DNA from: a candidate division WOR-3 bacterium
GTDB lineage: Bacteria > Hydrothermota > Hydrothermia > UBA1063
Length of the DNA: 64,000 nt
Direction of reading: 5' to 3'
Assembly (NCBI GenBank): GCA_039803545.1
Contig: JBDRYS010000001.1
Location: 437,866 to 501,865, forward strand
Made by a program: the position numbers and the translations under genes. The notes beneath the pieces were generated by a model, which did not search any database, was not told the DNA's origin, and worked only from the letters and a program-made list of their open reading frames with translations. Positions 43,941 to 49,677 of the stretch are shown here, in pieces. Within the stretch, counting starts at the first letter, position 1. Each line of letters starts with the position of its first letter.

Positions 43941-45109
43941 AAACAAAAAGAATAGTTATTATTGCTGCAGTAATCACTGTGCTGGGAATTATAGTTGCTG
44001 CTAATATTATAAAAGCTGGCAAAAATACACCTACTGTTGAAGCTCAAATTGTAACAAGAGGACGAATTCAGGAAGTTGTCCGGGCAGATGGTGAAATTAA
44101 AGCAGAAAAACAGGTAGATATCGGGTCCGATATAATGGGGAGGATTGAGAAGATTTATGTTAAATTAGGCGATTACGTGAAAAAGGGGGATACCCTTTGC
44201 CTTATTGATAGGCAGTCTTACGAAGCAAAGGTCAACAGTTTAAAAATGAGTTTGAACGATTTACAAAATAAACTTGACAAAGCCCAAAAGGATTTTGAAC
44301 GGATTAAGAGTCTATATGATAAGGGTCTTGTAGCCGAAACAGATTATGAAAACTCCAGACTTCAACTCGAAAGTTTAAAGGCCCAATATCAATCGACCTA
44401 TTACTCTTTAAAAGACGCCGAATATCAACTAAGTAAGACAGTTATTACATCACCAATTACTGGAAAAGTGGTAAGCTTAAACAAAGAAGCAGGTGAAATA
44501 GTAGTGATGGGAACCGTTAACAATCCTGCAACCGTTATTATGACGATCGCTGAACTTTCGAAAATGAAGGTCAATGCCTATGTAGATGAGTCAGAAATTG
44601 TTAAAGTGAAAGAGGGACAACCCGTCAATATAAATGTTACTGCTTACCCTGATAAAAACTTCAAAGGAATTGTGCGGGCAATATCTGCCGCCCCTTATCA
44701 AGGGACCACTACATCTTCCGCGACCGGTGGAGTCCAGTATTCTGTTGAAATTGCCATAGTAGATACTGGAATATTGTACCCTGGAATGACTGCAACCTGT
44801 GAAATAATCACAAACAGAAGGGATTCAGTCCTTAAAGTACCTGTTCAGGCTCTTGGAAAAGAAAAAACTGGAGAAGATTATCTTTTTGTAATAAGAGGTG
44901 GAAAAGTTTATAAAACCCCTGTTAAACTCGGAATAATAGCATCTAACGAAGCGGAGATTGTAGAAGGACTTGCGGAGGGAGATACCATTGCCACGGGACC
45001 TTACACTGTTTTGCGGACTTTAAAAGATGGCCAAAAAGTTAAATTTGAAATAAGGGAAAAGTCTTTCGAAGGTAAAAAGCCTGGCAGAAGATTCGAGAGA
45101 AGACCATGA
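43937..45109 (+). CDS. Periplasmic adaptor (HlyD/MacA-type membrane fusion protein)
   Basis: The 390-residue protein has an N-terminal membrane anchor (I-V-I-I-A-A-V-I-T-V-L-G). A lipoyl half-motif near residue 70 contains V-K-L-G-D-Y-V-K-K-G-D-T-L, followed by a coiled-coil hairpin (about residues 95-165) and the second lipoyl half I-T-S-P-I-T-G-K-V. Beta-barrel and C-terminal domains follow. It bridges the inner-membrane permease and TolC. The ATG overlaps the TolC gene by 4 bp and its stop overlaps the ATPase start by 4 bp. Confidence 0.93.
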   Translation: MKTKRIVIIAAVITVLGIIVAANIIKAGKNTPTVEAQIVTRGRIQEVVRADGEIKAEKQVDIGSDIMGRIEKIYVKLGDYVKKGDTLCLIDRQSYEAKVNSLKMSLNDLQNKLDKAQKDFERIKSLYDKGLVAETDYENSRLQLESLKAQYQSTYYSLKDAEYQLSKTVITSPITGKVVSLNKEAGEIVVMGTVNNPATVIMTIAELSKMKVNAYVDESEIVKVKEGQPVNINVTAYPDKNFKGIVRAISAAPYQGTTTSSATGGVQYSVEIAIVDTGILYPGMTATCEIITNRRDSVLKVPVQALGKEKTGEDYLFVIRGGKVYKTPVKLGIIASNEAEIVEGLAEGDTIATGPYTVLRTLKDGQKVKFEIREKSFEGKKPGRRFERRP

Positions 45110-45780
45110 AGCCTTTAATAGAGCTAATTGACATTAAGAAAACCTATTTTCTTGACGAAGTGCCCGTTGAAGTTTTAAGGGGAATTTCTTTGGAAATAAA
45201 GGAAGGGGAATATATTTCCATAATGGGACCGTCTGGTTCTGGTAAATCCACTTTGATGCATATAATTGGTTGTCTTGATACCCCTACTTCGGGAATATAT
45301 AATTTCGAAGGTGTTCCAGTCCATACCCTCGATGAGGACAAACTGGCTGAAATAAGAAAAAGAAAGGTTGGATTTGTATTTCAGAACTTCAATTTACTAC
45401 CCAGATTTACTGCCGTCGAGAATGTCGAACTTCCAATGATATATGCAAAAGTTCCGCCGGCCGAAAGAAGGGCCAGAGCAATAAAATTGTTAGAAAGATT
45501 AGGTATAGGCCACAGGATTAATCACAAGCCCACAGAACTCTCAGGGGGCGAAAGGCAAAGGGTTGCTATTGCGAGGGCCTTAGCTAATGACCCCAAAATA
45601 ATCCTTGCTGATGAGCCAACGGGAAACCTTGATTCAGTATCCGCTACTGAAATTCTGAATATTTTTGACGAATTACATAAAGATGGAAGAACAATCGTAG
45701 TTGTAACCCACGACTCTGAAGTGGCCAAAAGGGCCCAAAAAATAATAAGAATCCGTGACGGATTAATCGTAAAGGATTGA
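45106..45780 (+). CDS. ABC transporter ATP-binding protein (MacB/LolD type)
   Basis: The 224-residue ATPase has Walker A G-P-S-G-S-G-K-S-T near residue 42, the Q loop in F-V-F-Q-N-F-N-L-L, signature L-S-G-G-E-R-Q-R-V, Walker B I-I-L-A-D-E-P-T-G-N-L-D and the switch His in V-T-H-D. This is the MacB/LolD/FtsE subclass. It powers the permease encoded at 40764 and completes the tripartite pump. Confidence 0.95.
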   Translation: MKPLIELIDIKKTYFLDEVPVEVLRGISLEIKEGEYISIMGPSGSGKSTLMHIIGCLDTPTSGIYNFEGVPVHTLDEDKLAEIRKRKVGFVFQNFNLLPRFTAVENVELPMIYAKVPPAERRARAIKLLERLGIGHRINHKPTELSGGERQRVAIARALANDPKIILADEPTGNLDSVSATEILNIFDELHKDGRTIVVVTHDSEVAKRAQKIIRIRDGLIVKD

Positions 45781-46038
45781 TTCATTAAATTAAAAAGCCT
45801 TTAAACAGAGAGTTTTACCTTTCAAATTAGATGGACTAAGTTTGATTCTTATTCCAATTAGTTGTCAGATTGAACTTTTATGTGAAACACTGGGGCTTGG
45901 GATTCGTGGGAATACGTACTCTATCAAAATTAAGTTTACTTAAACGATCTTTTACTTTTGTTTTGATACCCATTTTAGGCTTTTTTCTTGTTGTAAGCCC
46001 TGTCGAGCTCCCTTTGTAACCTAATTGCGACCTGTGTT

Positions 46039-46136
46039 CATTTTATTACCTTTATATTACCTCTCAGACTTACTTACCTACTTTTTCCCTTTTAGCTTAC
46101 ACCCCAACTCTTAACACCCTGCCCACCACCTTCATC
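46039..46136 (+). terminator. Possible Rho-utilisation (rut) region after the efflux operon
   Basis: In these 98 nt I count 36 C and 3 G on the plus strand, with the rest A and T. Such C>G bubbles of about 80-100 nt, unstructured and untranslated, define Rho-binding sites. It lies about 260 nt after the ATPase stop. No hairpin with a U-tract is near. The assignment is by composition only. Confidence 0.4.
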
Positions 46137-46240
46137 TGCGTCGATTTTGAAGAATAAAAAATGCAATTTGGTCTCCGTTTTATTGTTTTTCAAGAAGCTA
46201 TCCCATTTCGAGTAGATTAATTTTGAGGAACGCCGAATTC

Positions 46241-46269
46241 TTGACTTATCAGATTTTCTCCGCTATTAT
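46241..46269 (+). promoter_or_regulatory. Predicted promoter of the KaiC/near-KaiC operon
   Basis: TTGACT (46241-46246) and TATTAT (46264-46269) are 17 bp apart. The -10 box ends 20 nt before the ATG at 46290 and AAAGGAG precedes the start codon. Confidence 0.65.
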
Positions 46270-46289
46270 TAAATAAAAGGAGTAAGATT

Positions 46290-47162
46290 ATGCCTGAAGA
46301 TTATCAGGAGGAACAAAGGATTGAGCCCGATTTATCAGCGGTGTATACTGGTACGGAGGCGCTGGAAAAGGCACCCGAAATTTATGGTGTAGAAACGGGT
46401 ATTGAGGGGCTTGATGATCTATTTTATATAGTTGAATCCAGAAAGAATCGGCTGGAAAAGAAGTCTTTAAAAGGTATACCTGCTTACTCGGTAATGAATA
46501 TCACAGGGGTTTCGGACACAGGAAAATCGCTTATAGTTGAGCAATTTACAGTATACAGAGCAAGCAAGGGCGACAAAGTGGCCTTCATAACAGTAGAATC
46601 TCCGGCAAATTTTGTTGTTGCCTCACTGAAATTAAGGGCTATGGCAATGGGGTTGAATTTTGACCAGTTTCAAGATAACATAATATTGATTGATGCTGCC
46701 TCTTCTACTCGAATCAGAGAGAATATACCAGACTTACTTGCAACTCTAACCTACGTGATAAAGACTTATAAAGTTAAGTTCACTGTTGTAGATTCAATTA
46801 CCGGACTCTTTGAGAATAAGGAAATGATGGCTCGTGCAGTGGTGAGAAGAATGTATAACTACATGAAAAAGTGGTATCAAACTGCCCTTTTTGTATCGCA
46901 GAAAAGAAGTGGACATGAGGAACTGACGGCTGAGGCAGCTGGGGGATATGCTGTGGGGCACATAGTAGATGGAACGATGGTACTGGCAAAGGAATTAGTG
47001 GATTCGGTCTATAAAGCACGGTTATATAGAAAACCATTGGGTGACATTGTTAGATTATTTAGAATCGATGGATGCAGAATGTCGGGACATGATACAAGAA
47101 CCCATTTTTTAGAAATTACAGATACAGGTTTGCTTATAATTAAGGAACCAATAGGAGGGTAA
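46290..47162 (+). CDS. KaiC-domain ATPase of the archaeal/thermophile type
   Basis: The 290-residue RecA-fold ATPase has V-E-T-G-I-E-G-L-D-D-L near residue 35, Walker A G-V-S-D-T-G-K-S at 73-80, T-V-E-S-P after strand 2 and Walker B-like F-T-V-V-D-S-I-T. It resembles the single-domain KaiC-like families seen in archaea and thermophilic bacteria (the TIGR03878 group in my reading), not the double-domain clock protein. The function is unknown; a signalling ATPase role is usual. Its partner gene follows 2 nt after the stop. Confidence 0.85.
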   Translation: MPEDYQEEQRIEPDLSAVYTGTEALEKAPEIYGVETGIEGLDDLFYIVESRKNRLEKKSLKGIPAYSVMNITGVSDTGKSLIVEQFTVYRASKGDKVAFITVESPANFVVASLKLRAMAMGLNFDQFQDNIILIDAASSTRIRENIPDLLATLTYVIKTYKVKFTVVDSITGLFENKEMMARAVVRRMYNYMKKWYQTALFVSQKRSGHEELTAEAAGGYAVGHIVDGTMVLAKELVDSVYKARLYRKPLGDIVRLFRIDGCRMSGHDTRTHFLEITDTGLLIIKEPIGG

Positions 47163-47164
47163 CA

Positions 47165-47830
47165 ATGGTGATAGAAATTACGGGGTTACCACAAGCAGAA
47201 ATGAATGAAAAGGACCTTGAGTATCTTGTCAGTAGGGTCTTTTTCAAGTCTATAGACCTTCTTGGTGGACTAAATAAACTTGCGGAATTCAGGACTCTTA
47301 CATGGCTTCCAAGCTTAGCAAGAGCAGCATACGTAATAGTTCTAAGAGATGAATATCTAAGAACGGAAGACGAAATAGCAAAAAGGGTTGGGCTTACGAG
47401 AAATACCGTTAGGAATATACTAAGAGCCGATCCAACCCTTGCCATGGAGAAGATCAAAAAGCTTGAAGAACTTGCCAAGGAAGAGATCAGGGAGATGAAG
47501 GTGCACACTGCTGGTGGGATAGCAAAACTCGCTTACAAGATGGTAAAAGAAGGGAATGATGCAGAAACTCTCGTTCAATATTATGGGTTGGCTGCTGAAG
47601 ATGTGGCAAAGGCCCTTGATATACCGTGGGCATATGCTGTTCTTAAATGCACAAAAGGAATAAAATACCCAATCGAAGAAGGCTCTGTCCTCAAAGAGAG
47701 ACTAACGGGCTTGAAGATTAAGAATCTTCCTTCTGAAGAGGTCATTGAAAAATTGCATTTCCCAATCAAAAATCCCGCGCACCTTTTACATGAGATAAAG
47801 CTTGTAATAAGCAGTATCGAAGGCAATTAA
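47165..47830 (+). CDS. Near-KaiC regulatory domain protein with HTH
   Basis: The 221-residue protein matches the near_KaiC (TIGR03879-type) partner of KaiC-like ATPases. The N-terminal half ends in a helix-turn-helix, E-D-E-I-A-K-R-V-G-L-T-R-N-T-V-R-N-I near residue 75. The C-terminal half is helical, with H-T-A-G-G-I-A-K-L-A. Members are predicted regulators encoded directly beside their KaiC partner, as here. DNA binding is inferred from the HTH only. Confidence 0.8.
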   Translation: MVIEITGLPQAEMNEKDLEYLVSRVFFKSIDLLGGLNKLAEFRTLTWLPSLARAAYVIVLRDEYLRTEDEIAKRVGLTRNTVRNILRADPTLAMEKIKKLEELAKEEIREMKVHTAGGIAKLAYKMVKEGNDAETLVQYYGLAAEDVAKALDIPWAYAVLKCTKGIKYPIEEGSVLKERLTGLKIKNLPSEEVIEKLHFPIKNPAHLLHEIKLVISSIEGN

Positions 47831-47913: not shown

Positions 47914-49653
47914 CTATTTTTTCTTAGTATCTCTATACTGTTGCTGGAATAGATAACGCTTTATCTTCATCGATGTTGTTTTGGGAAATTCTTCTTCACG
48001 AATAGTAAACTTCTTTACCCGTTTGTACTCAGCCAGATCATTGCAGTAGGTGTCAATTTCTCTGTCAATAAGTTTGTAAATATCGTCGATAGTTGGATTT
48101 TTGATGCCCTGCTCTTCGAAGTATTGCTGGACTGCTTCAAAGTTCGGGTATACTATAGCGTGAACCTCTTCTTTTTTGGTGTCGGGGTCGTAGGCACCAA
48201 GTACCAGAACCTCGGCAATGTATGGTGAGCGTAGAAGTGCAGTTTCAACCTCCTCAGGGTATACATTCTTTCCGCCAGCGGTTACGATTACATTTTTCCT
48301 CCTACCCGTAATATATACATAGCCATCCTTGTCGATATAGCCCAGGTCACCCGTAAGGAACCATCCGTCCTCGGTAAATACTTCTTTAGTGGCTTCCTCG
48401 TTTTTATAATATCCAGCCATTACCATAGGCCCCTTAACGGCGATTTCGCCGACTCCTTCTTCATTAGGTTCATAAATCTTAATCTCTGCATAAGGGACAG
48501 GTAAGCCTGCGCTATCGTTCTTAGGACAACAGATGGGATTCAGAGTTATAACAGGAGAAGTTTCAGAAAGACCATATCCCTGGAGAATCGGGAATCCCAT
48601 TTCTTCGAGGGCCCTCGATACCCACCTGGGGAGGGCTGCACCACCAGAAATAAGATATCTCAAATTATCCATCCCAAGTTTTGCTCTAACACTTTTAAAC
48701 AGTGCTTTGGAAGCTTTGCCTTTGAGAAAGGTATCCAGCGCCTTTGAAGTCCCTCTCAATCCGTTAAAGACAGCTTTTGTTAAAATGCCTGATTTCTCAA
48801 TATTTTTGAAAATTCCTTCCACAATTTTCTCAAGCAGTAAAGGAACAACTAACATCGCGGTAGGTTTAACATACTTCATTTCTTCTATCATTACTTTAGA
48901 CTTGAGTGAACTTGCGTATGCAATTGCGGCTCCTCCAGCTATTGGAACCACCAGTCCGCAAGTCTGTTCGTAGACGTGGTGAATTGGTAAAACAGAGAAG
49001 AAGGTATCGCCAGGCCCGTACTCAAGGCACTGATATAGAGAATCTACATCGGACATAATGTTTTTGTGTAAAAGCATTACACCCTTAGAAACTCCAGTTG
49101 TTCCTGATGTGTAAAGGATAACTGCAAGGTCTTCAAAGGCGACGTTTTCTTTAGGAATTCCAGTTTTGACTTTCTGAAAGATATCTTTAAGAGACACAAT
49201 GTTAAATTTGTTGGGCTGTTTAGAAATAATGTATTTCAATGTCGGAACTTCTTTCTGTATTTCCAAGAGGTCCTCAAGGAATCTGTCCTGAGCGGTTATA
49301 AGCACTGCCTCTGAATCCTTCAAAATATATTTAATTTCAGGGGTTTTAAGGCGAGCGTCAACAGGAATAACCGTTAAACCCAACCAATGGTAAGCAAAAT
49401 AAGTAATAGCCCAATAGGGAGAGTTATCTCCAATAATCGCTGCTTTGTTGCCTTTTTTAAGCCCAAGCTCTTCTTTTAAGTATTTAGCAAGACGGGTAAC
49501 ATGATCATACATCTCATCATATGTAAAAGTAATCCATTCATCCCCTTCCCTCATCATGAGAGCCATCCGGTCTTTATAAAGCCTATGAGACCTCTCAAAC
49601 ATTTCGGGGATGGTAAACCATCCGATACCCGGTCTAACAGTCGGAAATGCCAT
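47914..49653 (-). CDS. AMP-binding long-chain acyl-CoA synthetase
   Basis: I start at ATG 49653, just after GAGGAGGTGAGT; a TTG at 49671 would run through that ribosome-binding site. The 579-residue enzyme has the P-loop Y-T-S-G-T-T-G-V-S-K-G near residue 180, Q-G-Y-G-L-S-E-T-S-P, and T-G-D-L-G-Y-I-D-K-D-G followed by G-R-R-K-N-V-I-V. This is the ANL superfamily pattern of fatty acid activation to acyl-CoA. It stands alone between two divergent or convergent neighbours. Confidence 0.9.
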   Translation of the reverse strand: MAFPTVRPGIGWFTIPEMFERSHRLYKDRMALMMREGDEWITFTYDEMYDHVTRLAKYLKEELGLKKGNKAAIIGDNSPYWAITYFAYHWLGLTVIPVDARLKTPEIKYILKDSEAVLITAQDRFLEDLLEIQKEVPTLKYIISKQPNKFNIVSLKDIFQKVKTGIPKENVAFEDLAVILYTSGTTGVSKGVMLLHKNIMSDVDSLYQCLEYGPGDTFFSVLPIHHVYEQTCGLVVPIAGGAAIAYASSLKSKVMIEEMKYVKPTAMLVVPLLLEKIVEGIFKNIEKSGILTKAVFNGLRGTSKALDTFLKGKASKALFKSVRAKLGMDNLRYLISGGAALPRWVSRALEEMGFPILQGYGLSETSPVITLNPICCPKNDSAGLPVPYAEIKIYEPNEEGVGEIAVKGPMVMAGYYKNEEATKEVFTEDGWFLTGDLGYIDKDGYVYITGRRKNVIVTAGGKNVYPEEVETALLRSPYIAEVLVLGAYDPDTKKEEVHAIVYPNFEAVQQYFEEQGIKNPTIDDIYKLIDREIDTYCNDLAEYKRVKKFTIREEEFPKTTSMKIKRYLFQQQYRDTKKK

Positions 49654-49677
49654 ACTCACCTCCTCTATCAATTCTGA

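Follow-up and report, generated by a model that had tools for sequence, protein, structure and literature searches.

ATPases of the KaiC type assemble into rings and relay signals by way of partner proteins. The cyanobacterial circadian KaiC (TIGR02655) consists of two domains, whereas Pyrococcus PH0284, of the TIGR03877 (thermo_KaiC_1) family, has a single-domain KaiC fold; PF1931 of P. furiosus is presumably of the same TIGR03877 type. The TIGR03878 (thermo_KaiC_2) family is, to our knowledge and according to its family description, confined to thermophiles. NCBIfam pairs it with TIGR03879, a helix-turn-helix (HTH) protein encoded second by the adjacent gene, and the descriptions of the two families state no function; that the pair has no assigned role had been said in an earlier note on this DNA. 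Among the best 80 of 314 genome matches, many titles of named TIGR03878-type matches refer to hot-spring and vent genera. In P. furiosus, the KaiC-domain gene PF1931 and the predicted regulator PF1932 are members of the heat-shock regulon, and a KaiC-domain gene is a target of Phr (PMC10746257). Of all proteins, reverse gyrase is described as having the closest association with life at the upper temperature extreme (PMC6878951), and that of Nautilia is induced more than 100-fold by heat (PMC2628731). No regulator of a bacterial reverse gyrase is named in the literature covered by a non-exhaustive search. A link between KaiC and reverse gyrase is absent from the available part of PMC10746257; the search was limited, so a published link may exist elsewhere.

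A 64,000-nucleotide stretch of DNA from a candidate division WOR-3 bacterium, here called the window, carries a pair of this kind (Table 1). The window KaiC scores 446.1 bits against TIGR03878 (cut-off, 232.2), covers positions 1-258 of the 259 in the profile, and matches Pfam KaiC PF06745 with an E value of 2e-52. Assignment to TIGR03879 (near_KaiC_dom) takes both a score above the cut-off and a gene adjoining a KaiC-family gene; the window HTH protein reaches 127.9 bits (cut-off, 65.1) and its gene adjoins kaiC. Both proteins thus lie far above the curated cut-offs, in agreement with the family names originally proposed. The window KaiC shares the RecA-type fold, the ATP motifs and a match to the CI domain with circadian KaiC but has one domain instead of two and scores only 29.5 bits against TIGR02655 (cut-off, 546). 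With 57.7 bits against a cut-off of 307 it also belongs to a different family from TIGR03877, and it fails TIGR03880 (39.4 versus 249 bits) and TIGR03881 (59.9 versus 248 bits). Both open reading frames were confirmed 2 nt apart, from the kaiC stop to the start of the HTH gene, with the GGAGG-type ribosome site of the HTH gene read within the 3' end of kaiC. The ATPase gene followed by the HTH gene is a two-gene unit. The unit stands alone, with a macB-like gene on its 5' side and, 83 bp downstream of the HTH gene, a convergent gene for an acyl-CoA synthetase. No RNA family reached its gathering score in the window.

Table 1. Features in and around the kaiC-hth pair (window coordinates).
Feature	Position	Strand	Remark
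macB-like ABC transporter ATPase gene	45106..45780	+	Left border of the insertion site; outside the unit
Intergenic stretch 5' of the pair	45781..46289	+	509 bp; no convincing match among the loci compared
Sigma-70-like promoter candidate, TTGACT-17-TATTAT	46241..46269	+	10/12 matches
kaiC-like single-domain RecA-family ATPase gene (TIGR03878, thermo_KaiC_2)	46290..47162	+	290 aa
near_KaiC HTH protein gene (TIGR03879)	47165..47830	+	221 aa
AMP-binding (acyl-CoA synthetase) gene	47914..49671	-	Right border of the insertion site; outside the unit

The pair had also been credited with its own near-consensus promoter. The arrangement TTGACN-spacer-TATTAT is seen a single time in the 64 kb (0.49 expected); despite this, the candidate at 46241, though plausible, falls short of significance relative to the local chance level, because nine promoter-like sites are found in 2.3 kb against 6.1 +- 2.7 in shuffled sequences. 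The site is also not conserved in the sister species, where the gap 5' of kaiC is about 175 bp long and does not align with the corresponding stretch of the window. The matches to that stretch among the loci compared are all short and at chance level. A search for an operator shared by the upstream regions of kaiC and reverse gyrase found none; between the two sister species the upstream DNA could not be aligned.

The window KaiC contains a Walker A motif at residues 72-82, a catalytic-type Glu103 and a Walker B Asp168. Residues G73, D76, T77, G78, K79, E103 and D168 are kept in all 53 aligned KaiC rows and S80 in 48 of them; as read from the sequence, the motifs for ATP binding and hydrolysis are intact. 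Residues 260-268 read Asp-Gly-Cys-Arg-x-x-Gly-His-Asp, the named residues again being present in 53/53 rows. The AF2 model of KaiC (pLDDT 90) finds its best fold matches in PH0284, the nearest solved structure, and in the CI domain of KaiC. The model of the HTH protein (pLDDT 89) is all-helical with HTH-like helices, the predicted HTH comprising residues 68-86 and the C-terminal part being all-helical as well. It has no PDB fold relative at E <= 0.001; weak VIA matches point to DeoR, TFIIB, sigma region 4 and ParB (best Z, 6.6), and Pfam Sigma70_r4 and HTH_3 are barely at their cut-offs.

The genus of the window is represented by four genomes (G000, the window genome; G002, its sister; G001 and G003, the other congeners), and the pair is found in G000 and G002 only. 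In G002 it occupies the same place between both flanking genes. In G001 the macB-like gene is followed by the acyl-CoA synthetase gene with 53 bp between them, and so the site is empty. The window KaiC is 91% identical to that of G002, 54-60% to the 18 remaining rows of its phylum in alignment A1 and 85.1% to that of Sulfurihydrogenibium yellowstonense (Aquificota); the corresponding values for the HTH protein are 90%, 40-50% (own phylum beyond the genus) and 75.5%. GuaA, encoded by a neighbouring gene and used as a control, is 85% identical to G002, 66% to G004 and 60% to S. yellowstonense. In the KaiC tree (105 rows, the partial L126 and L139 left out) and in the HTH tree (87 rows, without L126), neither of which contains archaeal rows, the window and G002 group with Sulfurihydrogenibium, Thermocrinis and Caldimicrobium apart from their own class, nested among Aquificota and Thermodesulfobacteriota rows. 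A grouping of the window with the rows of its own phylum is rejected (AU test, p = 0.008). The AU test, both trees and the empty site in G001 bear out the suggestion that the pair was transferred horizontally. The pair descends from a Sulfurihydrogenibium-like Aquificota source, and its acquisition by transfer from Aquificota-like bacteria is almost certain.

The source of the transfer implied by the original label, "archaeal-type", is another matter. Import from archaea would accord with the fact that homologous KaiC families are common in archaea and with the archaeal source of the closest solved fold, PH0284. However, the TIGR03878 cut-off is passed in none of four archaeal control genomes, as against one of ten bacterial ones (Thermus composti), so that the label itself is not supported; the best 80 of the 314 genome matches carry bacterial titles throughout, and the identities to Sulfurihydrogenibium and the bacterial nesting in both trees, built without archaeal rows, speak against such an import as well. 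Archaeal origin was consequently rejected on the identities, trees and control genomes, and we consider it very unlikely. It is even harder to believe that the pair is ancestral in the genus, passed on vertically within the class and lost in two species without any recent transfer: other class members do carry a pair, but their KaiC proteins group apart at the low identities given above, and a clade with them is what the AU test rejects. The earlier note had treated a position deep inside a bacterial clade together with vertical inheritance as the outcome that would count against it; the position within a bacterial clade was indeed found, but the descent is horizontal and not vertical by the same test. 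Phage carriage was also considered and rejected, there being no match to the pair among the viral contigs and phages searched. The plasmid collection gave one match only, on the 918-kb megaplasmid of Thermomicrobium roseum, where a 55% identical KaiC is followed by a 127-aa near_KaiC protein (L162:14995-16274). The T. roseum pair adjoins a gene for FAD-dependent thymidylate synthase.

The reverse gyrase gene of the window genome (G000:C1:924916-928332) lies 440 kb from the pair (kaiC, 484155-485024). Its product is 83% identical to that of G002, 71.9% to that of S. yellowstonense, 62% to that of Thermocrinis and at most 60% to those of its own class, and the reverse gyrase tree joins the window and G002 to S. 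yellowstonense with an SH-aLRT value of 100. In G003 the genes that flank the window's reverse gyrase directly adjoin each other, leaving an empty site. Neither the pair nor reverse gyrase is present in G001 or G003. As a background control, a comparison of 440 kb from the window genome against 537 kb from S. yellowstonense yielded 57 reciprocal best pairs with a median identity of 35%. The top four are KaiC (85.1), the HTH protein (75.5), EF-Tu (74.8) and reverse gyrase (71.9). Since EF-Tu evolves slowly everywhere, it is the pair and reverse gyrase that stand out. These comparisons show two unlinked imports from one Sulfurihydrogenibium-like donor lineage. What the analysis of the window adds to the NCBIfam description is the transfer route and the association with reverse gyrase.

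The HTH gene adjoins kaiC in 59 of the 80 named loci and lies 1.4 kb off in one more, and the gene order and near-zero spacing of the two genes are kept across loci. Clustering of the neighbours in these 80 loci gave reverse gyrase as one informative recurrent neighbour; the other recurrent ones, ABC ATPases (8 loci) and GGDEF/EAL proteins (6 loci), belong to large promiscuous families. By tblastn, reverse gyrase adjoins the pair in 17/80 loci, all 17 being among the 60 in which the HTH gene is present and the sequence continues for 300 nt or more past it; in the other 63, some with short flanks, there is no reverse gyrase beside the pair. The 17 loci belong to Campylobacterota (10) and Aquificota (7), and reverse gyrase is downstream in 16 and divergent upstream in one (L072). 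In all six Campylobacterota loci read, the stop of the HTH gene and the GTG or TTG start of the reverse gyrase gene overlap by 4 nt, and in all four Persephonella-type loci read there is a terminator-like hairpin between the two genes. The reverse gyrases of Persephonella and Campylobacterota are sisters in the tree, and therefore the arrangement common to both may have arisen once and spread by transfer. The cluster of Nitratiruptor and its kin has the same two genes in the same order as the window, but its reverse gyrase is adjacent whereas that of the window genome is at another site.

The two also co-occur across genomes, as counted in three phyla with Fisher tests that ignore kinship. In 397 Campylobacterota genomes, evenly drawn from a larger group, reverse gyrase is present in 16/16 KaiC-positive and 3/381 KaiC-negative genomes (KaiC, 16; reverse gyrase, 19; both, 16; neither, 378). 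In 136 Aquificota genomes, with reverse gyrase counted at E <= 1e-130, it is found in 109 of 114 with KaiC and 15 of 22 without (both, 109; KaiC alone, 5; reverse gyrase alone, 15; neither, 7). Among 147 genomes of the window's own phylum, KaiC and reverse gyrase each exceed the cut-off in 29 and both do so in 22; when either gene of the pair is counted, reverse gyrase is present in 23/31 carriers and 6/116 others. Within the window's own class, 25 genomes with completeness of at least 90% and contamination of at most 5% comprise 11 with both, 5 with KaiC alone, 2 with reverse gyrase alone and 7 with neither (p = 0.04), and the 18 at 95% completeness comprise 7, 3, 2 and 6, respectively (p = 0.15), so that the link is weaker inside the class; in such counts missing contigs can mimic joint absence of the pair and reverse gyrase. 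Each also occurs alone, which, like the negative search for a common operator, is opposed to a strict bond. The coupling is further weakened by the hairpin in Persephonella, by the 440 kb between the two loci of the window genome and by Thermus thermophilus, whose plasmids carry reverse gyrase, whereas the pair was not found on the Thermus plasmids of the plasmid collection. Growth temperature is the chief confounder: the co-occurrence may be indirect because the pair and reverse gyrase both mark high growth temperature.

These observations lead to a best explanation, held with moderate confidence, in which the pair is a horizontally acquired two-gene regulatory module that is heat-linked and has reverse gyrase as its likeliest partner or target. 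KaiC and the HTH protein probably constitute a regulatory pair, and most likely they act as a heat-linked switch of transcription that is driven by ATP and has a functional coupling to reverse gyrase, although the case for the coupling itself is evenly balanced. The KaiC-like ATPase would form a ring whose nucleotide state may change with heat or energy charge; this state could control DNA binding by the HTH partner, which would in turn switch genes needed at high temperature, reverse gyrase first. The earlier suggestion of a thermophile-specific signalling unit is a reasonable reading in this heat-linked version. It is doubtful that regulation of bacterial reverse gyrase is the dedicated task of the pair. 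In that case the ring would sense heat or nucleotide charge and release or recruit the HTH protein at the reverse gyrase promoter, and the two loci, linked or not, would be selected together and spread as a heat-tolerance kit; reverse gyrase as the sole target is the less likely case. A general thermophile stress regulator with a broad heat or energy response, tied to reverse gyrase by shared ecology only, is possible at best: KaiC occurs without reverse gyrase in 5/25 near-complete genomes of the own class, the P. furiosus KaiC-domain gene is under Phr, and most named loci have no adjacent reverse gyrase, but this would leave unexplained the operon-type overlap in six Campylobacterota loci, the divergent arrangement in L072 and the import of two unlinked loci from a single donor lineage. 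The pair might instead act as a protein partner on DNA or on reverse gyrase itself, in topology or repair, with the HTH protein as an adaptor that loads a RecA-fold ATPase. The place of KaiC in the RecA/RadA superfamily and the physical linkage with a topoisomerase gene are consistent with this; we nevertheless regard it as improbable, since family and Pfam profile searches detect no nuclease or helicase domain in either protein and the family description of TIGR03879 speaks of a probable regulatory domain. Under the favoured reading, the reading-frame overlap in one phylum, the co-occurrence in three and the shared donor lineage make the pair a candidate regulator module. The pair itself is of a known kind; what is new here is that it tracks reverse gyrase, and this association offers an initial clue to what single-domain KaiC ATPases with HTH partners do.

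Several minor observations were made on the proteins and loci compared. Cys262 (codon 262) of the DGCRxxGHD stretch is invariant in 53/53 KaiC rows, and a redox or metal role is possible. A separate Aquificaceae-type KaiC set (L112, L113, L115, L119, L121-L124, L127-L129, L133-L137 and L140) has a near_KaiC gene beside kaiC in 0/17 loci, some of them with short flanks. The six loci with GGDEF/EAL cyclic-di-GMP genes near the pair (L066:2484-5834 and L075:2667-5816 are two of the six scanned) belong to Aquificota and Thermodesulfobacteriota, possibly by chance in genomes rich in such genes. In the congener G001, open reading frames near a DUF2089 gene (L202:10974-14000) contain a repeated SIPHRKAEI-type motif and resemble a CRISPR array. 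An AIM24-family gene lies between kaiC and hth in one class member (L211:1640-2314), and a 1.4-kb gap separates the two genes in L094 (Aquificota). In the Nitrospirota loci L114, L125 and L141 the order is reversed, with the HTH gene first and overlapping or touching kaiC.
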